Shown here: positions 28,911 to 46,101 of the stretch, piece after piece
Layout of the letters: the number at the start of each line of letters is the position of its first letter
Position numbering within the stretch: the stretch's first letter is position 1
Origin: Agrobacterium vitis
GTDB taxonomy: Bacteria > Pseudomonadota > Alphaproteobacteria > Rhizobiales > Rhizobiaceae
Direction of reading: 5' to 3'
Assembly (NCBI RefSeq): GCF_013426735.1
Contig: NZ_AP023275.1
Span: forward strand, 245,505-309,504
DNA length: 64,000 bases
Translations under genes and position numbers: made by a program
Notes under the pieces: model-generated
Seen by the model: only the letters and a program-made list of their open reading frames with translations
Told to the model about the DNA's origin: nothing
The model's database searches: none

Positions 28911-28945
28911 TCCAAGGGCGCAATTATACGTCGCTGATGCGACGT
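28911..28945 (-). other. oriT: Origin of transfer (oriT) nic region
   Basis: CCAAGGGCGCAATTAT is followed by the inverted repeat ACGTCGC-TGAT-GCGACGT (28928-28945). Read on the minus strand this gives a hairpin then ATAATTGCGCCCTTGG, closely resembling the RSF1010/Q-type nic core (AAGTGCGCCC) used by Ti-plasmid TraA. The nick is expected within GCG/CCC on the minus strand. It lies between traC and traA, the normal Ti location. Confidence 0.88.
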
Positions 28946-29024
28946 GGTTGCTTTCCGCCCTGGCGGGGCCGTAGTGGGCTCGTCGCCCCCGACGAACGAG
29001 ATTCGAACCGGGAGTGTTTACGCG

Positions 29025-32000
29025 CTGGCCATCGCCCATTTCTCAGCCAGCATCATCAGCCGCGGCGACGGCCGCAGTGCCGTGCTGTCTGCGGCCTACC
29101 GGCATTGCGCGAAAATGGAATATGAGCGAGAGGCGCGCACGATCGATTACACACGCAAACAGGGCCTGCTGCATCAGGAATTTGTTCTGCCAGCCGATGC
29201 CCCGAATTGGGTCCGCTCCCTTATCGCCGATCGCTCTGTATCGGGAGCGGTCGAAGCCTTCTGGAACAAGGTCGAGGCCTTCGAGAAGCGCTCCGATGCC
29301 CAGCTCGCGCGAGACCTGACAATCGCACTTCCGCTGGAGCTGACGGCCGAGCAGAACATCGCACTGGTACGGGACTTCGTGGAAAAGCACATTCTCGCCA
29401 AGGGCATGGTTGCCGACTGGGTCTATCATGACAATCCTGGAAATCCGCACATCCACCTGATGACGACATTGCGGCCGCTGACCGAAAATGGGTTTGGGGC
29501 AAAGAAGGTTGCAGTCATTGGTGAGGATGGCCAGCCTGTCCGCACGAAATCTGGTAAGATCGTCTACGAACTCTGGGCCGGTTCGACCGAAGATTTCAAC
29601 AAGCTGCGCGATGGATGGTTCGAACGCCAGAACCATCACCTGGCGCTCAGTGGTATCGATCTCCGTGTCGATGGCCGCTCCTACGAGAAGCAGGGCATAG
29701 ACCTGGAGCCGACCATCCATCTCGGCGTCGGCGCCAAGGCGATCGAGCGCAAGGCGGAAAGCCAAGGCGTGCGTCCGGAGCTCGAGCGGATTGAGCTGAA
29801 TGAGAAGCGGCGAAGCGAGAACACCCGTCGAATTCTGCGACGCCCGGAGATCGTGCTCGACCTGATCACCCACGAGAAAAGCGTCTTTGACGAGGGTGAT
29901 ATCTCCAAGGTGCTGCATCGCTATATCGACGATCCCGGCATGTTTCAGCAGTTGATGGCGCGCATCATCCAGAGCCCTGATGTTCTGCGCTTGAAGCGCG
30001 ATACGATCGATTTTGCAACCGGCGACAAGGTGCCGGCCCGTTACTCAACACGGGCGATGATCCGGCTGGAAGCGAGAATGGCGACGCAGGCGATATGGCT
30101 GTCAAACCGGGAGGGACGTGCGGTTTCCCCAACCATACTGGATGAGACATTCCGGCGGCATGTGCGACTGTCGGATGAGCAACGGATTGCAATCGAACGT
30201 ATCGCTGGCCCGGCTCGCATCGCGGCTGTCGTAGGCCGTGCGGGTGCGGGCAAGACCACGATGATGAAGGCGGCGCGTGAGGCATGGGAACTGGCCGGAT
30301 ATCGTGTGGTCGGCGGCGCGCTTGCGGGCAAAGCGGCCGAAGGCTTGGAGAAGGAAGCGGGCATTCAGAGCCGCACGCTTGCGTCCTGGGAGCTGCGTTG
30401 GGGCCGTGGCCGCGACATGCTCAATGAGCGGACCGTATTCGTCATGGACGAGGCGGGTATGGTCGCCTCAAAACAGATGGCGGACTTTGTCGATGCCGTT
30501 GTCCGGACAGGGGCGAAGATCGTGCTGGTTGGCGATCCGGAACAACTCCAGCCGATCGAGGCGGGGGCCGCCTTTCGTGCGATCGTTGACCGTATCGGAT
30601 ACGCCGAGCTGGAGACGATCTATCGCCAGCGCGAAGACTGGATGCGGCATGCCTCGCTTGATTTCGCGCGTGGCAATGTCGCTCGGGCGCTGTCTGCCTA
30701 CCAGAGCGAAGGCAAGGTGCTTGGGTCGACGCTGAAAGCCGAAGCCGCCGACCATCTGATTTCCGACTGGTACCGTGATTACGACCCTGCGAAGTCCACA
30801 TTAATCCTCGCTCACCTGCGCCGTGACGTGGGCATGTTAAACGGCATGGCGCGTGACAAGCTGGTCGAAAGCGGCATCATCGGTGAAGGCCATGCCTTTA
30901 GAACTGCCGACGGCATCCGCCAATTTGACGTAGGTGATCAGATCGTCTTTCTGAAGAACGAAGGATCGCTCGGCGTCAAGAATGGCATGATCGGTCATGT
31001 CATCGAAGCGGCGCCGAACCGGATCGTCGCTGTCGTGGGGGAAGGCGATCAGCGCCGCCAGGTGACGGTCGAACAGCGCTTCTACAGCAATCTCGATCAT
31101 GGCTACGCGACAACGATCCACAAAAGCCAGGGAGCGACGGTCGACCGGGTGAAGGTGCTGGCTTCGCTGTCGCTCGATCGACATCTGACCTACGTGGCGA
31201 TGACCCGTCACCGTGAGGATCTGCAGCTTTATTACGGGACGCGGTCCTTTGCCTTCAATGGTGGCCTCACCAAGGTTCTGTCCCGGAGAAACGCCAAGGA
31301 AACCACGCTCGATTACGAGCGCGGAAACCTCTACCGCGGGGCACTGCGGTATGCAGAAAACCGTGGTCTCAACATCGTCCAGGTGGCGCGTACGCTGCTG
31401 CGCGACCAACTCGACTGGACACTGCGCCAAAAAACCAGACTTGCCGATCTTGCTCAGAGGCTTCGTGCAATCGGTGAGCGCTTTGGCCTCCAACAATCCC
31501 CGAAAACCCAAGCGATGAAGGAGACAGCACCTATGGTCGCAGGCATCAAGACATTTTCCGGTTCCGTCGCCGATACGGTGGAGCAAAAGCTCGACTCTGA
31601 TCCAGCCCTCAAGAAACAATGGGAAGAGGTCTCGACCCGCTTTGTTTACGTCTATGCCGATCCCGAGACTGCCTTCCGGGCGATGAACTTCGATGCAGTG
31701 CTGGCAGATAAAGATAGCGCCCGCCAAGTGCTTCAAACGCTTGAAGCGGAGCCGGCATTCATCGGACCATTGAGGGGTAAGACCGGCATTCTCGCCAGTA
31801 AGGCCGACCGCGAGGACCGTCGCGTCGCAGAACTGAACGTCCCCGTGCTGAAGCGCGATCTTGAGCATTATCTGAGGATGCGCGAGACTGCCGTGCAGCG
31901 GCTGCAGGCTGACGAGCAGGTATTGCGCCAGCGCATATCGATCGACATTCCAGCGTTGTCGCCGGCCGCACATGTGGTGCTGGAGCGCGTGCGCGATGCG

Positions 32001-32327
32001 ATTGACCGTAACGACCTGCCAGCGGCCATGGCGTATGCGCTCAGCAATCGTGAAACCAAGACTGAGATCGACGGGTTCAACCAGGCCCTTGCCCAGCGGT
32101 TTGGGGAACGCACGCTGCTCACCAATGCCGCGCGGGAACCCTCCGGAAAGCTGTTCGACACACTCTCTGAAGGAATGCAGCCGGAGCAGAAGGAGCGTCT
32201 GAAGCAAGCCTGGCCGGTGATGCGCGCAGCCCAACAGCTTGCGGCCCACGAACGCACCGTCCAGTCGCTGAAGCAGTCGGAGGAATTGCGTCTCATCCAG
32301 AGCCAGACCTCGGTGCTCAAGCAATGA
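29025..32327 (+). CDS. traA: Relaxase-helicase TraA
   Basis: A MobQ-type relaxase fused to a RecD-like helicase. From the codon aligned with the usual first Met the protein is 1100 residues, as I recall for Ti TraA. That codon is CTG (29025) with GGGAG 10 bases upstream; the nearest conventional in-frame start is GTG 28944, inside oriT. Relaxase part: [13 protein letters not shown], then [13 protein letters not shown] (metal-binding His motif, about 141). Helicase part: [10 protein letters not shown] (about 406), [33 protein letters not shown] (about 699), YVAMTRHRE. It nicks oriT, stays on the 5' end and unwinds the strand. Its stop overlaps traF (ATGA). Confidence 0.95.
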
Positions 32328-35403: not shown

Positions 35404-36282
35404 TTGGCTGAAACAATTGGGGTACAAACATTGGACGCCGAAGACGAAAGATCACGTGACTGGGTATCGATCCGTCGGCCGTTCGCAAAGGCTGGCCTGG
35501 AAACGATGACGGCGCGGTATATCCAGCAATCCTTTAAACCGCATGCACATGATGAATATGTCATAGGGATCATCGAAAGTGGGGTTCATTCGGTTTGGTG
35601 TCGAGGAATTCATAACAATGTGCCTTCAGGCACTGTGGTCACTATGCATCCAGGGGATGTCCACTATGGCAATGCGGCAATTGCCGAGGGCTGGAAGCAG
35701 CGAATGATTTATATAAGTGAGAATGAAATTCGGAAGTTCATTTGCGACATTGCGGGTGGAGACAAGTTTTTGCTACCCGATTTCAAACAAACGTTTCATG
35801 ATAGGCCGGATCTCGCCCATTCCTTCGCGCAGTTTCATGAAGTCTTGCATAACTCACCCTTGGCGTTGGCGCGTGATGTTGCGCTTGATTCGATTATGCG
35901 CGTCACAATTGGTGCCTTGTCGCCAGATTTAGTGAAGGCAAAAGACGCAAAGCAGCCGTCCGGTCGCATCGCAGATGCCGTTGAGTTCTTGCACAATCGC
36001 ATCGAAGACGATGTCACGCTGGACGAACTTTGTGATGTCGCTGGTTTGAGGCGGCGCCAAACCATTGAAGCATTCAAGCGGTGTACTGGATTACCCCCGC
36101 ACGCTTATCACGTCATTCAAAAAGTGAAGGCCGTCAAAACCATGCTGCGGAGTGGCTTTTCGGCAACCGAGGCGGCCGCAAGAGCAGGATTTGCTGACCA
36201 AAGCCATATGACGCGCCACTTCGTTGGGGTGGTTGGAATGACACCCGGTGCCTATGCTCTGGATTGCCAAAAAAAATATTAA
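35404..36282 (+). CDS. AraC-family regulator of the ligase/hydroxylase cluster
   Basis: Up to 292 residues from TTG 35404; the start is uncertain and ATG 35506 would drop the first 34. The N-terminal cupin (FKPHAHDEYVIGIIESG; MHPGDVHYGN) is the AraC_binding fold with a His-rich face. The C-terminal double HTH is clear (VTLDELCDVAGLRRRQTIEAFKRCTG and SATEAAARAGFADQSHMTRHF, each given as short pieces DELCDVAGL and AARAGFADQSHMTRHF). It sits 102 bases upstream of the exporter, ligase and hydroxylase genes in the same direction, so it probably regulates them, perhaps in response to an amino acid. Confidence 0.85.
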   Translation: MAETIGVQTLDAEDERSRDWVSIRRPFAKAGLETMTARYIQQSFKPHAHDEYVIGIIESGVHSVWCRGIHNNVPSGTVVTMHPGDVHYGNAAIAEGWKQRMIYISENEIRKFICDIAGGDKFLLPDFKQTFHDRPDLAHSFAQFHEVLHNSPLALARDVALDSIMRVTIGALSPDLVKAKDAKQPSGRIADAVEFLHNRIEDDVTLDELCDVAGLRRRQTIEAFKRCTGLPPHAYHVIQKVKAVKTMLRSGFSATEAAARAGFADQSHMTRHFVGVVGMTPGAYALDCQKKY

Positions 36283-36384
36283 CCCGCATTTTTATTCTAT
36301 CCGGTTCATGACCGGCTCTCTTAGCTTGGTTGCGTACAGCCCGCTCATCTTGCGGGAAATGCAATCAAAGAGGAAAGCCTTATC

Positions 36385-37299
36385 GTGAATGGTTTTAGAA
36401 ATGCCTCATTATCGAGAAGACCTGTTGCTGTCTCCATGTGGGCAGACTTGGCAGTCCTCGGGGTCGCTGTCGTGTGGGGGGCTAGCTATCCCGTTGCAAA
36501 GGGAGCGCTACTATACGCTCCAGTCTTGATCCTTATTCTTTATCGCTTCCTGATCACGACGATTATCATGATGATCGTAGCGCGTCGCGAGATTGTGGCT
36601 ATGTCGCGGGGAGATACTCTACGGGGATTTTTACTTGGGTCGATCCTGTTTTCAATTTTCCTTGCGGAAACCTATGGGGTCGCTTTGACGACTGCGACGA
36701 ATACGGCGCTAATCATCTCCCTTTGTGTGATCTTTACACCAATTTTGGACTACGGGTTGTCACGGAAACTTCCGCCGCCTGCCGTTATTGCGAGTGCCAT
36801 CGTTTGTTGCGTTGGCGTCGGTATCTTGACCGGTGGTATAAACGCCTTCGGTGCAGGTGACTTGCTCGTTTTGGGTGCAGCAGTATTGCGGGCTATTATG
36901 GTTGTCTCGACAAAGCGGCTTATGTTCGGCCGCCAGATTTCCTCTGCGGCACTCACTGCAATCCAGGGTTTTTCGGTCACAACACTGACCTTGGTTGTCG
37001 TGATCGCTCAATTTGGTGCCAGCAGCATTGCGGTTGATGCCGATCCCCAATTTTGGTTTGCAGTCGCATTCCTTTCGCTCTTTTGCACCATCGCAGCATT
37101 CTACATACAGAATGCTGCGGTCAGGAGAACAACGCCAACGCGTGTTGGATTTCTGATGGGAACTGAGCCCTTTTTCGGCTTCCTCCTCGCGCATCTTTTG
37201 CTCGCCGAACCGATCAGCGCGACAAGCGTATCGGGTGCCGCCCTCATCCTCGTAGGGACCTTTGCCGGAATTCTCTCCGAAAACAGGAAAAGATCATGA
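36385..37299 (+). CDS. DMT/EamA-family exporter
   Basis: A 304-residue inner-membrane protein with ten predicted helices and two EamA repeats. GTG 36385 has GAGGAAAG upstream; ATG 36436 is possible. [13 protein letters not shown] near the start and [22 protein letters not shown] (given as [10 protein letters not shown] and LLLAEPI) in the second repeat are diagnostic. RhtA, YddG and other members export amino acids. Its stop overlaps the start of the argininosuccinate-synthase-like gene (ATGA), so it likely exports that pathway's product, as RhtA-type exporters do beside isoleucine hydroxylases. Confidence 0.88.
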
Positions 37300-38513
37300 A
37301 TTTCGTTCCACAATCGATAAAGATATCTGCCAATCGTGTTTCAAATTTTGAAGATCTTATCGCTTTACCAGACAGAAGCGCCCCGGTCGTTACCATGTTC
37401 AGCGGCGGCCTTGACAGCACGTACCTTCTCTACAAATTGCAAAGCTTGGGTTTTAAAAATGTTCAGGCAGTTGCGGTCAATGTCGGAGAGACCATTGACG
37501 GGCGGTTGCTTGAGCAAGTTGCAATGCAATTGGGCGCGCGATTTGTTTATCTTGATGGTCGCGAAGCCTTCGTGGAAGGTGGCGTCAAACCTGCGATTCG
37601 AGCTCATGCGAAATACCTTGGCAATTACCCTCTCAGCAGTTCGCTCAGCCGGCCAGTGATTGCGTCACTGGTCGTCGATTATGCCACCTCGATCGGGGCA
37701 AGGGTTCTGTTGCACACTGCAAACCTGTCTCAAAATAGCCTTCCGCGGCTCAACAACAGTATAAAGCGGTGCGGCTTTGAAGGCTATTTTGGGAGCCCTT
37801 ATCAAGGCTCTGTATTGTTGCGCGAACAGAAGGCCGCTGCCCTTGCGCAAGTCGGGCTCACATTTATGACGGACCGACACCTGAGTGGAGATGAAAATCT
37901 ATGGTGCAGGGAGTTTGAGTCTGGTCCTTTGGACGATCCCGAGAGTTTTTCCATACCAGAAGACGCTTTTTCCTGGACCAGAGAAGCTGCTGATCGACAG
38001 ACGGAAGATCTCAATCTTGGCTTTTTAGACGGGAATCTTGTCTCCATTGATAATGAAGATATTGCGCTCATTGATGCCATATCAATCTTGAATCAGAAAA
38101 TCGGCAAATTCGGTCATGGCCGTTTCGTCGGCCTCGAGCATATTTCGTCCGGCGAGAAAGTTCTTGAGGTTCGTGAAGCGCCTGCGGCAGCCATCATCAT
38201 GGACGCTTTGCGCCACTTGGAAACAGCGTCTCTCAGTACCGGTTCGATCATCCTGAAGCAAGGTCTTGAACAAGCCTGGGCCCAAGAGGCCGTATCCGGG
38301 AATTGGGGCAGCACCATTCACAAAATGTGTGATCAGGCAATTATCACTGCGCTCCAAGGCGTAAGTGGGTACGTCCGTTACAGCATCGATAGCACTCGCT
38401 TTTTGCCGAAGTCCATCGTTGCTCACAATCCGAAATATATTCGGGATCGGGAACTCTGGGAATACCAGGCTGCAGGTGCGACAGCACCGGTTAGAGATTT
38501 CGACTTTGCTTAA
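37296..38513 (+). CDS. Argininosuccinate-synthase-like ATP-dependent ligase
   Basis: A 405-residue protein, the usual length for ArgG. The PP-loop ATP motif FSGGLDST is at residues about 34-41. The family signature [17 protein letters not shown] (about 197-213) is followed by a FSWT segment and [12 protein letters not shown], then [11 protein letters not shown]. ArgG joins citrulline and aspartate with ATP to give argininosuccinate. The N-terminal motif and the region around HTANLSQN differ from housekeeping ArgG, so a different amine or ureido substrate is plausible. Context (AraC, exporter, 2OG hydroxylase) points to a specialised metabolite rather than arginine supply. Confidence 0.85.
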
Positions 38514-38534
38514 CCACGATAACAGGAAGCAATC

Positions 38535-39281
38535 ATGCTGAAGAAAATCGCATCTCAAGCGCAGTACAACCATAAGCAGGAAGGCGTTGACCATCTCTTG
38601 AAAAACGGCTGGTGGTTCTCAAGAGGCGAACATACAGAAGCAGCCTTTGACATCGAAATAGATGCCGATTGGTATGATTTTGCCGGTCACTGGAACCGCT
38701 TATTGTTGGATGAGTATATGCGTGACGGTGGAACTTACCGTTATCGTCGCTATAGCGCTTTCGAATATAGCTCCAAGGACGAAAAATTTCACCTCTTGCC
38801 GCATGCCCCTTATGAGCAATCCAAACGGGTTAACCACTTGAATGGCGGCTTCAAGCGTCATTTTGAGCCATTAGAGAAGTGCTTTGTCAACCATCCGGTC
38901 CTGAGCAAGATCCTGATCAATTTTGGCCGAATGTTCTCGGAAGCTGCCGGGCATGATCGCTGGGATATCAAACTCCACCCATACCGGATTACCGCTCGGG
39001 AAAGCACCTGCGGTGAGCCGACACCTGAAGGGCTGCATCAGGACGGAGTTGATTTTATTGTTTCTTATATGATCAGCCGGGTGAATGTGACTGGGGGCAC
39101 GAGCACGGTAACAAATTCTGAAAAGCAGCCGATCGGAGACGTCGAGATGAACATGCCAAACGATTTCGTCGTTGGTAATGATCGTGAAACATATCACGGG
39201 GTAACGCCTATTGCGATTGAAAATACCAAAATGCCAGTTGCATATCGTGATGTTCTCGTCATCGCTTTCGAAAAGATCTGA
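38535..39281 (+). CDS. 2OG-Fe(II) dioxygenase, amino-acid hydroxylase type (PF10014-like)
   Basis: A 248-residue protein with AGGAAG before the ATG, 21 bases after the ligase. RYRRYSAFEY (about 72-82), LHQDGVDF (His/Asp iron ligands, about 167-170), a distal YHGVTP His (about 220) and YRDVLVIAFEKI with the 2-oxoglutarate Arg form the pattern of the 2OG-Fe_dioxy_2 family. That family includes L-isoleucine 4-hydroxylase of Bacillus thuringiensis. It hydroxylates an aliphatic carbon using 2-oxoglutarate and O2. The likely substrate is a free amino acid or the ligase product. Confidence 0.85.
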   Translation: MLKKIASQAQYNHKQEGVDHLLKNGWWFSRGEHTEAAFDIEIDADWYDFAGHWNRLLLDEYMRDGGTYRYRRYSAFEYSSKDEKFHLLPHAPYEQSKRVNHLNGGFKRHFEPLEKCFVNHPVLSKILINFGRMFSEAAGHDRWDIKLHPYRITARESTCGEPTPEGLHQDGVDFIVSYMISRVNVTGGTSTVTNSEKQPIGDVEMNMPNDFVVGNDRETYHGVTPIAIENTKMPVAYRDVLVIAFEKI

Positions 39282-39853: not shown

Positions 39854-39861
39854 GTTGGTGC
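39854..39861 (+). repeat. Left copy of 8-bp target duplication
   Basis: GTTGGTGC immediately left of the IS66 terminal repeat, identical to 42661-42668 on the right. Confidence 0.92.
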
Positions 39862-39965
39862 GTGAGCGTCCGGTGAGCGGATTTTGCCGATCGGGCAAAT
39901 CGGGGGATGTTCTGGCATTAGAACCAGCATTAGTGCTGACATTAATACCAGAACGAAGAGGTTGC

Positions 39966-40328
39966 ATGGCTCGCATGGAGATCATGTCCGGCAGTGAGCG
40001 TCGGCGGCGCTGGTCTGACGAGGCGAAACTGAGGATATTGGCGGAAGCGGATCAACCTGGTGTTCGCATTGGTGATGTGGCTCGCCGGCATGATATCTAC
40101 CCATCCCAGATCCGTTTGTGGCGGCAGTCATTCAGTTATGTCGGTCAACCGGCGATGTTCCTTCCGGTTGAAATCACCGAGGAGGCAAGCGCTACCCAGG
40201 CACCTGACACGCCACCGACGCCAGCGCTCATCGAGATCTCGCTACGAAACGGTCGGTGCTTGAGGGTTCCGGCTGACATAGAGCTTAGGATGCTCGGGTC
40301 GTTGATCGCCTGCGTGGAGGCGGCATGA
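39966..40328 (+). CDS. tnpA: IS66 TnpA (HTH accessory protein)
   Basis: A 120-residue protein. ATG 39966 is chosen because the Lys/Arg-rich SGSERRRRWSDEAKLRILAEA that follows is the conserved start of IS66 OrfA. An HTH (VRIGDVARRHDIYPSQIRLWR, in parts GDVARRHDI and SQIRLWRQ) lies at about 40-60. It is required with TnpB and TnpC for IS66 transposition and probably binds the element ends. It overlaps tnpB by 4 bases. Confidence 0.9.
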   Translation: MARMEIMSGSERRRRWSDEAKLRILAEADQPGVRIGDVARRHDIYPSQIRLWRQSFSYVGQPAMFLPVEITEEASATQAPDTPPTPALIEISLRNGRCLRVPADIELRMLGSLIACVEAA

Positions 40329-40672
40329 TCGGGCCATCGGGAAATGTGCGGGTCTATCTGGCCTGCGGAGTGACGGATATGCGGCGCGGCATTGATGGCC
40401 TATCGGCGCTGGTCGAGACGGTCGTAAAGGAGGCCCCTGGCTCGGGCGCAATCTTCGGCTTCCGCGGAAAGCGCGCGGACCGGATCAAGCTTCTCTGGTG
40501 GGACGGTCAAGGGTTCTGCCTGTTCTACAAGATTTTGGAGCGCGGATACTTTCCTTGGCCGACGGCGAAAGAAGGTGTCGCGCACCTAACGCAGGCACAG
40601 CTTTCGATGCTCGTTGAGGGGATCGATTGGCGCCGCCCGGCGTGGACATCCGCCCCCGGTCGAACAGGATAA
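40325..40672 (+). CDS. tnpB: IS66 TnpB (Orf2 family)
   Basis: A 115-residue IS66 Orf2 protein: VRVYLACGVTDMRRGIDGLSAL, then RADRIKLLWWDGQGFCLFYK and a WPTAKEG segment, with the usual length of about 115. Accessory transposition protein of unknown biochemical role; not related to the RuvC-like TnpB of IS605. Start ATG overlaps the tnpA stop (ATGA). Confidence 0.93.
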   Translation: MIGPSGNVRVYLACGVTDMRRGIDGLSALVETVVKEAPGSGAIFGFRGKRADRIKLLWWDGQGFCLFYKILERGYFPWPTAKEGVAHLTQAQLSMLVEGIDWRRPAWTSAPGRTG

Positions 40673-40744
40673 AAGCCATATTTTGCAGAGACATCCGAGG
40701 CATAAAACTGGCATGCCAACGGCAAATCGGCTAGATTTGCGGGT

Positions 40745-42310
40745 ATGGAAACAGCGCCGCCGGACAGTCAGGACGAGCTCACTGCTTTGCGCGCGCTGGT
40801 CGCGGAACAGGCGGCGAAACTTGAGAGCCAGGAAGCCGAGGTCATCAAGCGTGACTCCATAATCGGACTTCTTCGCGCGCAACTGGAGCTGCTCCGACAC
40901 CGGCAGCATGGCGCTTCCTCGGAAAAGATCGACCGGAAGATCGAGCAATTCGAACTGATGCTGGAGGAGATTGAGGCCTCCCGTGCCGAGGCTGAAATGC
41001 GTTCCGGGAAAACTCCTTTGCCGGAGTTGGACGACGCGCCGGACAAGCCGAAGCGCAAACCACTGCCCGATGGCCTTCCCAGCGAAGAGTTGGTCTATGC
41101 GGCCCCCTGCAATTGCCCGACCTGTGGTGGCACATCGTTCCTGAAGGCCGCCGACAGGGTGATCCAGATCTTGGAGCACGTGCCGGCGTCGGTCAAGATT
41201 GTCCGCCATGTCGAAAAGCGCATGATCTGCAGGGAGTGCGATACGACGGTGGCTGGCGAGATGCCGACCTTGCCGATCAAGCGCGGCAAACCCGGGCCGG
41301 GACTGCTCGCCCATATCATGATCGCCAAATTCGACGATCACATCCCCCTCTACCGCCTGTCCGAGATGTACGACCGGTTGGGGATAGACATCTCCCGATC
41401 CGTGATGGCCGACTGGGTCGGCCGCGTATCCGCTTTGCTGACACCACTCGTCTTGTTGATCAGGGCCCATATCGCAGCACTCGACCGAATCCATACGGAC
41501 GATACCCCGGTCGATGTTCTCGACCCCGGGCGGGGCAAGACAAAAACCGGCAGGGTCTGGGTCTACGTGTTCGACGGCAGTGGCTATCAATCCGCCACTC
41601 CCGCAGCCATCGCCTATTACTACAGCCCTGACCGCAAGGGGGCGCATCCCGCTGACCATCTCGCAAGCTTCAGCGGCGTCATGCATGCCGACGGCTATGG
41701 GGGATACAAGAAGCTCTACGGCAACCAGATCGTTGAGGCCGCCTGCATGGCGCATGTGCGCCGCAAGGTCCATGATGTGATCAAACTCAAGCCGTCGCCG
41801 ATCGCGGAGGAAGCGCTGTCGCGCATCGGCGCTCTCTACGATATCGAGAACCGTATCCGAGGCATGTCGGCTGACGAGCGGCGCACTCTGCGCCAACACC
41901 ATGCCCGGCCCGCTCTGGATGAGCTGAAGGCCTGGATCGAAACCACGCTCTCAACTTTGCCGCAGAAGCAGAAGCTGGCCGAGGCAATGCGATATGCCCT
42001 CTCTCGATGGGCAGCCTTGAGCGTTTACATCGACGATGGCCGGGTCGAGATTGACAACAACATCGCTGAACGAGCCATGCGTCCGCTCGGAATCGGAAGG
42101 AAAAACTGGCTGTTTGCCGGCTCGGATAAGGGCGGTGAGCGCATCGCCAACATTCTGACCATCATCGAGACGGTCAAACTGCAAGGCCATAATCCGGAGG
42201 TCTATCTGACAGATGTCCTGACCCGGATCCAGGATCACCCCAAAGATCGAATTGAAGACCTGCTGCCCTGGAACTGGACACCAGCAAACGCTCGATGCGA
42301 GGCCGCCTGA
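40745..42310 (+). CDS. tnpC: IS66 transposase TnpC
   Basis: A 521-residue DDE transposase. An N-terminal leucine-rich coiled coil (ELTALRALVAEQAAKLESQE) is followed by a Zn ribbon with CNCPTCGG and MICRECDT. The catalytic domain has HTDDTPVDVLDPGRGKTKTGR (Asp), MHADGYGGYKKLY (Asp) and GRVEIDNNIAERAMRP (Glu), then the C-terminal LPWNWTP. It performs cutting and joining of the element ends. Confidence 0.95.
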   Translation: METAPPDSQDELTALRALVAEQAAKLESQEAEVIKRDSIIGLLRAQLELLRHRQHGASSEKIDRKIEQFELMLEEIEASRAEAEMRSGKTPLPELDDAPDKPKRKPLPDGLPSEELVYAAPCNCPTCGGTSFLKAADRVIQILEHVPASVKIVRHVEKRMICRECDTTVAGEMPTLPIKRGKPGPGLLAHIMIAKFDDHIPLYRLSEMYDRLGIDISRSVMADWVGRVSALLTPLVLLIRAHIAALDRIHTDDTPVDVLDPGRGKTKTGRVWVYVFDGSGYQSATPAAIAYYYSPDRKGAHPADHLASFSGVMHADGYGGYKKLYGNQIVEAACMAHVRRKVHDVIKLKPSPIAEEALSRIGALYDIENRIRGMSADERRTLRQHHARPALDELKAWIETTLSTLPQKQKLAEAMRYALSRWAALSVYIDDGRVEIDNNIAERAMRPLGIGRKNWLFAGSDKGGERIANILTIIETVKLQGHNPEVYLTDVLTRIQDHPKDRIEDLLPWNWTPANARCEAA

Positions 42311-42615
42311 TGGCCCGCTCGAGGTTCATCTACACACTCAGCCAAGTCGCCGGCATGATCGGCGAGAACCTCGAACTGATCGAAGAAGTGACCGCAAACT
42401 CGGACAACCTCTCCGAGGGCGAACTGGTTTACGTCAGCGATGGCAGTGAAGATGGCACGAAGGGTCTGACCGAGAATGGCATCGACGAACTTCAAAGCCT
42501 ACTTGCCGACATCAGGACTTGGGAGGGCGGTATCCGCGAGTTCCTCATCGACACACAGTGCGATCCTGAAATAATCGACCGCGTCATGGCCGATGAGATG
42601 AAACGCGGCCTGTAG
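42310..42615 (+). CDS. Fourth small gene of the IS66 element
   Basis: A 101-residue acidic protein whose ATG shares a base with the tnpC stop (TGATG), inside the element 45 bases before the right terminal repeat. SQVAGMIGENLELIEEVTAN, DGSEDGTKGLTENGIDELQS: no catalytic motif. Some IS66 members carry such a gene; its role is unknown and may be regulatory. Confidence 0.7.
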   Translation: MARSRFIYTLSQVAGMIGENLELIEEVTANSDNLSEGELVYVSDGSEDGTKGLTENGIDELQSLLADIRTWEGGIREFLIDTQCDPEIIDRVMADEMKRGL

Positions 42616-42660
42616 ATTCGGACAATCGAACGCGCGAAAATCCGCTCACCGGACGCTCAC

Positions 42661-42682
42661 GTTGGTGCGGTGTTTCACCAAC
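42661..42682. repeat. Inverted repeat hit by the IS66 insertion
   Basis: GTTGGTG (42661-42667) pairs with CACCAAC (42676-42682) over 8 bases. The first arm is the IS66 target duplication, so the element inserted at the edge of a pre-existing stem-loop, perhaps a terminator. Confidence 0.6.
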
Positions 42683-45434: not shown

Positions 45435-46101
45435 TGACTTATTGGCTCAAATTTCGTTTCATTTCGCTCGATTTCGCATCGTATCGTGCTTGTGTCCTCG
45501 AGCAAGGGTTATCAGCGCGAGACAGCGATCAAAATATTTAATGCATCACTTTTGTGCGACGGAATTTTTTTGTAAGCGGCTAGGTATTCATGAATTTCAT
45601 TATTTTCATCATTAGCGCAATGTCGTTCTTGTTTACGGCACGAGAACAGAGAAAAGTTATAGGGCAGCCGCGATTAACGCTACGCTCATCGGCAATAGAG
45701 CGCGTTACCGCCTATCTTTGACGTCACGGAGACGGATAGGCGCAACAGGGCCGGACAGCGAATTATTTCAGCCGAGCCAATTTCATCATGGTCAATGAGT
45801 TCGGCTGCTTCCTCCGCCTTATGCGACGCTTAAATGACAAACGCACAAGTTTTATCGGTTCACCCATCACAGCGAGAATATGAAGACAAGCAATGAAATA
45901 TTGTTTTTAAAAACCGTTCTTTCCTTAAAGCCAAAGTCAAAGAGTTACTATTTTGCGCGCTGATTCACAGCCCAAGACTACACAAAACGATTGATTTTTC
46001 GCGTTGCATAACCGCCGAAAACTTAACAACGGAGGAGGGCACTAACGTCACTTTCCTAAGCCGTTGCAACGTTCTACCGCGCAACTCTATTGGAGAATTT
46101 C
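45435..46101. other. A+T-rich intergenic region between divergent genes
   Basis: About 665 bases. The left edge has the phased ATTTCG repeats. Near 45709-45742 an 8-bp inverted repeat (CGCCTATC/GATAGGCG) encloses 18 bases. The right end holds the GGAG ribosome site of the XRE gene. No convincing gene. Confidence 0.4.
45451..45480. repeat. Three phased 10-bp direct repeats (ATTTCG)
   Basis: ATTTCGTTTC, ATTTCGCTCG and ATTTCGCATC follow each other without a gap, so ATTTCG recurs at exactly one helical turn. They start 17 bases upstream of the TTG start of the membrane/HTH gene, the expected place for an operator. Confidence 0.6.

Follow-up and report, generated by a model that had tools for sequence, protein, structure and literature searches.

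A conserved gene cluster of Agrobacterium vitis predicted to make and export an oxidised nitrile amino acid

What does a relative of argininosuccinate synthase (ArgG) produce when it is encoded between an amino-acid exporter and an iron- and 2-oxoglutarate (2OG)-dependent dioxygenase? This question is raised by a four-gene cluster at positions 35404 to 39281 of a 64,000-nucleotide window, the whole stretch of Agrobacterium vitis DNA analysed here. We confirmed that all four genes, for an AraC-family regulator, an EamA-family exporter, an ArgG-like ligase and a PF10014 dioxygenase, are intact reading frames. An earlier note had described them as a biosynthesis-and-export cluster adding an N-linked aspartyl or guanidino group to a hydroxylated amino acid. 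The cluster stands in our analysis, and a different chemistry is favoured: with a probability of roughly 0.65, it makes and exports an oxidised nitrile amino acid, most likely derived from glutamine. Of this reading, the genes present, the fold and residues of the ArtA type and the conserved association of the genes are established, whereas substrate, oxidation site and product are predictions.

The ligase and the dioxygenase

The ligase gene (37296..38513, + strand) encodes both argininosuccinate-synthase domains (Pfam) and is predicted to specify an ATP-dependent nitrile synthetase of the ArtA type. Its product is only 29% and 26% identical to the two ArgG copies of the genome, misses the ArgG equivalog cut-offs (TIGR00032, 157.7 against 268.2 bits; NF001770, 171.8 against 334 bits) and scores 536.7 bits, above the curated cut-off of 425, with NF038212 (argG_rel), an NCBI family with no stated function. 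Some argG_rel match was found in 147 of 150 surveyed genomes, its own included, and only its own passed the cut-off. A tree of 132 rows (111 ligase-family and 21 ArgG; 125 different sequences), built with a quick method and supports from the Shimodaira-Hasegawa-like approximate likelihood ratio test (SH-aLRT), splits the ligase family from ArgG at 100 support. The phylogeny proposed in the earlier note thus yields no grouping with housekeeping ArgG, and this separation, together with the low identities, led us to reject a housekeeping ArgG duplicate.

In human ArgG, T119 and D124 contact aspartate. The aspartate-side D124 corresponds to S148 in the window ligase (Ser in 83, Thr in 28 and Asp in none of the 111 family rows) and T119 to N143 (Asn in 106, Ser in 3, Thr in 2), whereas the aspartate-binding Thr and Asp are both present in 21 of 21 ArgG rows. 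On the citrulline side, Y111 (77/111), S116 (103/111), E281 (105/111) and N147, R151 and S197 (111/111 each) are kept, with changes from S189 to E206 (110/111) and from Y282 to R293 (111/111). Such a pattern would be expected of an enzyme that has kept its binding of an amide-bearing amino acid and lost its need for aspartate.

Among solved enzymes, a nitrile synthetase comes closest. The ligase shares 64% identity and the same fold with ArtA and has all three of the amide-contacting residues reported for that enzyme (PMC13060819), Q146, S197 and D199. Of these, only Q146 distinguishes the family from ArgG. Judged from these sequence features, the window ligase most likely turns a side-chain amide into a nitrile with ATP. 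Glutamine is preferred as the substrate because an origin from anthranilate and glutamine has been proposed for quinazolinones related to auranthine (PMC3397440), and because Aspergillus lentulus, a listed auranthine producer (PMC4703822), encodes a homologue with 64% identity to the window ligase. Among the closest known systems are the ArgG-like nitrile synthetases ArtA and NitB of the auranthine pathway, whose fungal homologues branch near the rhizobial group (see below). Unlike ArtA, which serves a non-ribosomal peptide product (PMC13060819), the window gene has a PF10014 dioxygenase and an exporter as neighbours; the region examined showed no non-ribosomal peptide synthetase (NRPS) gene. 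ATP-dependent nitrile formation is also known from PesC (nitrilobacillins), ToyM/QueC and CalN (PMC13060819), which differ in protein family and substrate.

The dioxygenase gene (38535..39281, + strand) scores 207.6 bits with PF10014 (2OG-Fe_Oxy_2; Pfam gathering cut-off 23.1). The metal- and 2OG-binding motif of this family, HxD...H...R, is represented by H168, D170, H221 and R238. The protein reaches only 35.6 bits with the HilB model NF042428 (isoleucine-derivative 4-dioxygenase; cut-off 350), and its top sequence match among solved structures is HrmJ (9dqp, 115.1 bits). We dropped an assignment of the structure 3pl0 to the betaproteobacterial form of the cluster, a Rhizobacter dioxygenase scoring only 116 bits against it. 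PF10014 genes are uncommon, occurring in 6 of 60 relatives' genomes (its own included) and in 1 of 14 control genomes; a second one lies on the main contig of the same genome (G000:C1:3271626-3272204), which carries no argG_rel gene above the cut-off.

Two known systems resemble this half of the cluster. The IDO/Hil operons for hydroxylation and export of free amino acids share a PF10014 dioxygenase, an RhtA-type exporter in the IDO and some Hil operons and, in some, an ATP-dependent ligase, but that ligase belongs to PF13535 and lacks nitrile chemistry (PMC3684760). The cyclopropanases HrmJ and BelL are likewise of the PF10014 type, and their amino acid substrate ends in an electron-withdrawing nitrogen group, but the nitro group concerned is built by a haem-oxygenase-like enzyme (PMC10764440), and their identity to the window dioxygenase is 27-29%. 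Each of the three elements, ArtA-type chemistry, oxidation by PF10014 enzymes and export of the RhtA type, was already known; no report of their combination in bacteria, an ArtA-type gene together with one of PF10014, was found in open-licence literature, to which the searches, partly aimed elsewhere, were confined.

Conservation of the gene partnership

The co-occurrence survey suggested in the earlier note was performed on the best 80 of 171 confirmed relatives from a genome scan, a sample that leans to near relatives. A PF10014 gene accompanies the ligase in 60 of the 80 loci, always within 269 bp (measured between matched domains), and 57 also contain an exporter homologue (>100 bits), which bears out the proposed biosynthesis-and-export cluster. 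By genus label, the dioxygenase is present in at least one locus of 34 of 40 genera, so that the core of the cluster is shared by many bacteria that are not related, plant symbionts among them. Among the 60, the dioxygenase frame is partial in three loci (L033, L085 and L096, the first with an assembly gap inside the gene), and the ligase of L086 is spread over two frames.

Gene order was compared in a set of 85 loci, comprising the 80 and five plasmids, among them the broken locus L026. The order ligase-dioxygenase-exporter was found in 36 loci and exporter-ligase-dioxygenase in 23, the latter including 14 ligase/dioxygenase fusions and one locus with exporter and ligase in one frame; dioxygenase-ligase-exporter (2), ligase-dioxygenase (4) and ligase alone (20) account for the others. 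In Microvirga lupini (L033, 7041-9197), a single open frame with no unknown bases spans exporter and ligase. Shuffled order and fusion are stronger evidence for a joint function than a single conserved order would be, and on these counts the gene association is beyond chance.

The 20 loci without a dioxygenase belong to 18 Actinomycetota, Burkholderia paludis and one metagenome-assembled genome (MAG). Eleven of these 20 loci have NRPS-like genes nearby, versus 2 of the 65 with a dioxygenase, and His-111, Arg-144, Thr-148 and Met-295 each occur in 17 of the 19 pockets counted, the MAG (L045) being grouped with the rhizobial rows. The comparison, which ignores shared ancestry, suggests that this class has a different substrate or role. 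The Actinomycetota genes in question (L053, L057-L059, L061, L066, L068, L072, L076, L077 and L079, and further L090, L094, L097, L098, L100, L107 and L108) possibly supply nitrile building blocks for peptides.

A predicted pathway and its alternatives

By close homology, the ArgG-like enzyme would adenylate a side-chain amide with ATP, most likely that of free L-glutamine, and eliminate AMP to leave the nitrile (S)-2-amino-4-cyanobutanoate (L-cyanohomoalanine). Before or after this step, the dioxygenase would oxidise a C-H bond of the amino acid, the family precedent being often C4, so that its predicted substrate is either the nitrile amino acid or the amide precursor. The EamA protein would then secrete the free amino acid, and the AraC protein would regulate the cluster genes.

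Several observations weigh against this reading. Glutamine was chosen over asparagine by analogy, and the substrate of ArtA itself may be free glutamine or a later intermediate. Pocket positions such as Y111, L144 and A295 differ between groups, and the amide used may therefore differ by clade as well; the aspartate-pocket Thr is retained in 2 of 111 rows, leaving the change incomplete at one of the two compared positions. The dioxygenase is only 17-29% identical to the PF10014-type structures listed, a quarter of the loci (20/80) lack it, and the 80-locus sample over-represents Mesorhizobium (13), Streptomyces (12) and Collimonas (7). No measured activity of a bacterial family member was found in the open-licence literature.

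The methionyl-tRNA synthetase of Escherichia coli incorporates cyanohomoalanine, the nitrile of glutamine, yet at 800 ug/mL the compound only marginally slows growth of this bacterium (PMC13320846), which argues against a simple methionine-antagonist role of the unoxidised compound. This weak effect leaves room for the oxidised product, which could be the active compound. One such product would be cyanogenic: hydroxylation at C4, beside the nitrile, would give an exported cyanohydrin that releases hydrogen cyanide (HCN) and aspartate semialdehyde, in effect masked cyanide made from glutamine. PF10014 enzymes do yield 4-hydroxy-leucine, -isoleucine and -threonine, and IDO and HilB also oxidise methionine (PMC3684760), which cyanohomoalanine mimics (PMC13320846); HrmJ and BelL remove hydrogen from C4 of an amino acid ending in a nitro group (PMC10764440), and the exporter is paired in most loci. 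However, TqaL, which has a related fold, seems to target the beta carbon, a different amide substrate would alter the geometry, and no cyanide-resistance gene was recognised in the seven gene clusters common to at least three genera, which are annotated in part. We regard cyanogenesis as unlikely. Slightly less likely again is the wider proposal of a widespread, previously unrecognised pathway from glutamine through L-cyanohomoalanine, C4 hydroxylation and an exported cyanohydrin to HCN outside the cell, with the fungal auranthine-type synthetases descending from the bacterial set. On this wider proposal, the HCN would act on competitors or serve in signalling within the root zone and nodule.

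A nitrile acidifies the neighbouring carbon far less than a nitro group does, which makes it very improbable that the dioxygenase closes a ring, as HrmJ and BelL do, to form a cyclopropane-nitrile amino acid. HrmJ is the top match among solved structures and, like BelL, cyclises an amino acid bearing a terminal nitro group, but it only hydroxylates a carboxylate analogue, cyclisation depending on an acidic carbon (PMC10764440).

The earlier proposal, in which a hydroxylated amino acid is coupled by the ligase with aspartate or with a donor of the guanidino type, draws on the fold, PP-loop and several citrulline-side positions shared with ArgG, but is hardly credible and was rejected given the replaced aspartate-pocket residues (Asp in 111/111, Thr in 109/111), the missed equivalog cut-offs, the nitrile synthetase as closest solved enzyme and the want of a convincing lyase partner: a search of the flanks of the 85 loci with the genome's own ArgH returned only two weak matches (36-37 bits), both in Marinobacter.

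The preferred reading, an exported oxidised nitrile amino acid, offers a concrete, testable reaction for the argG_rel family, whose members are named by NCBI merely as argininosuccinate synthase-related proteins. It predicts a class of such compounds in rhizobia, vibrios, Collimonas and others, indicates a possible source of the fungal auranthine-type nitrile synthetases and points to a simple gene set for nitrile biocatalysis.

Regulator, exporter, plasmid context and distribution

The exporter gene (36385..37299, + strand) has a GTG start and scores 96.9 bits with Pfam EamA; its top NCBIfam model, TIGR00950, reaches 45.7 bits, under the cut-off of 230.2. It is likely the efflux pump for the cluster product. 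In line with the coupling described in the earlier note, the exporter and ligase genes overlap by 4 bp (37296-37299, ATGA), and a gap of 21 bp separates ligase and dioxygenase. The AraC-family gene (35404..36282, + strand; AraC_binding 85.5 bits, HTH_18 62.5 bits) probably starts at TTG 35431, 27 bp inside the listed start, because its homologues on two plasmids of grapevine Agrobacterium/Allorhizobium are annotated with a length of 852 bp. It also precedes the exporter in pAtS4e and VAR03-1, and a similar AraC gene (>100 bits) occurs in 2 of the 80 loci (Methylobacterium L046 and Rhizorhapis L047). In its place, a LysR regulator seems to be common, a LysR gene being found in one gene cluster shared by 27 loci (one member checked).

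The window is the terminal part of a 309,504-base contig (C4) in a 5.88 Mb genome of seven contigs. Upstream lie traA, traF, traB and traH, in a region that shares 95.1% identity with plasmid pAtS4e from Allorhizobium ampelinum S4, which probably places the host within or close to the grapevine Agrobacterium/Allorhizobium group; downstream are rcgR/rcgA-type genes and an IS66-family insertion sequence (IS) (39860..42662, + strand; TnpB_IS66 and DDE_Tnp_IS66), which begins about 0.58 kb after the cluster and has terminal inverted repeats with 27 of 30 terminal bases paired. The island described in the earlier note as A+T-rich is indeed lower in G+C (50.3%) than the window (56.3%) and the tra genes (60.1%), but the adjoining rcg genes are just as low (49.4%), so composition alone does not mark an island and we treat it as weak evidence. 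As for the suggested transfer, plasmid location and patchy presence among relatives fit it, but no support was found for IS66 as the carrier: in pAtS4e, AraC and exporter genes of about 95% identity stand behind these tra genes too.

The match to pAtS4e stops four codons into the ligase and restarts at window position 45588, and that to VAR03-1 stops about 97 codons into the ligase. CG957 has both ligase and dioxygenase in fragments, with an IS5 element in between, and pAvCG78b lacks window segment 34784-46551; the window copy is uninterrupted. The ratio of non-synonymous to synonymous substitution rates (dN/dS) between window and VAR03-1 is about 0.22 for the exporter and 0.32 for AraC. Decayed copies on other grapevine Agrobacterium/Allorhizobium plasmids (L109, 6001-8230; L110, 5956-8284; L026, 6435-9008) have a truncated ligase or pieces separated by an IS5 element. 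On a Rhizobium tropici CIAT 899 plasmid (NC_020061.1, 27930-28385) the top match spans ligase residues 165-316 only, which suggests decay there too; the record has a second place.

NodA was surveyed in the genomes or records of 17 hand-chosen loci of the 85, and 13 gave a match: all nine Mesorhizobium, Rhizobium and Microvirga genomes, Methylobacterium WSM2598, two cluster-bearing Rhizobium plasmids and, weakly (26 bits), Bradyrhizobium SSBR45G. No match was obtained in the MAG L045, in Rhizorhapis or in two records for which plasmid sequence only was searched. The same model found no match in the window's own genome or the 14 control genomes, a result that does not by itself establish absence.

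In the tree, 18 fungal proteins form one branch (support 88), whose junction with the rhizobial group has support 83. Both lie in a 54-row set supported at 100; apart from the fungi, a long-branched protein of Halomonadaceae and an unclassified MAG, this set is alphaproteobacterial. Most fungal homologues among the matches listed (P0015, P0020, P0024, P0025 and others) are 60-65% identical to the window ligase, and two from Fusarium 53-55%; bacterial loci outside the rhizobial group, at 42-52%, are farther from it than most of them. This tree position is consistent with transfer from bacteria to fungi.

The TraA relaxase upstream of the cluster (28944-32327) contains a BID-type domain (PF17841, 144.7 bits), and a VirE2 search of the genome returned one 35-bit match, above the cut-off, on contig C5.
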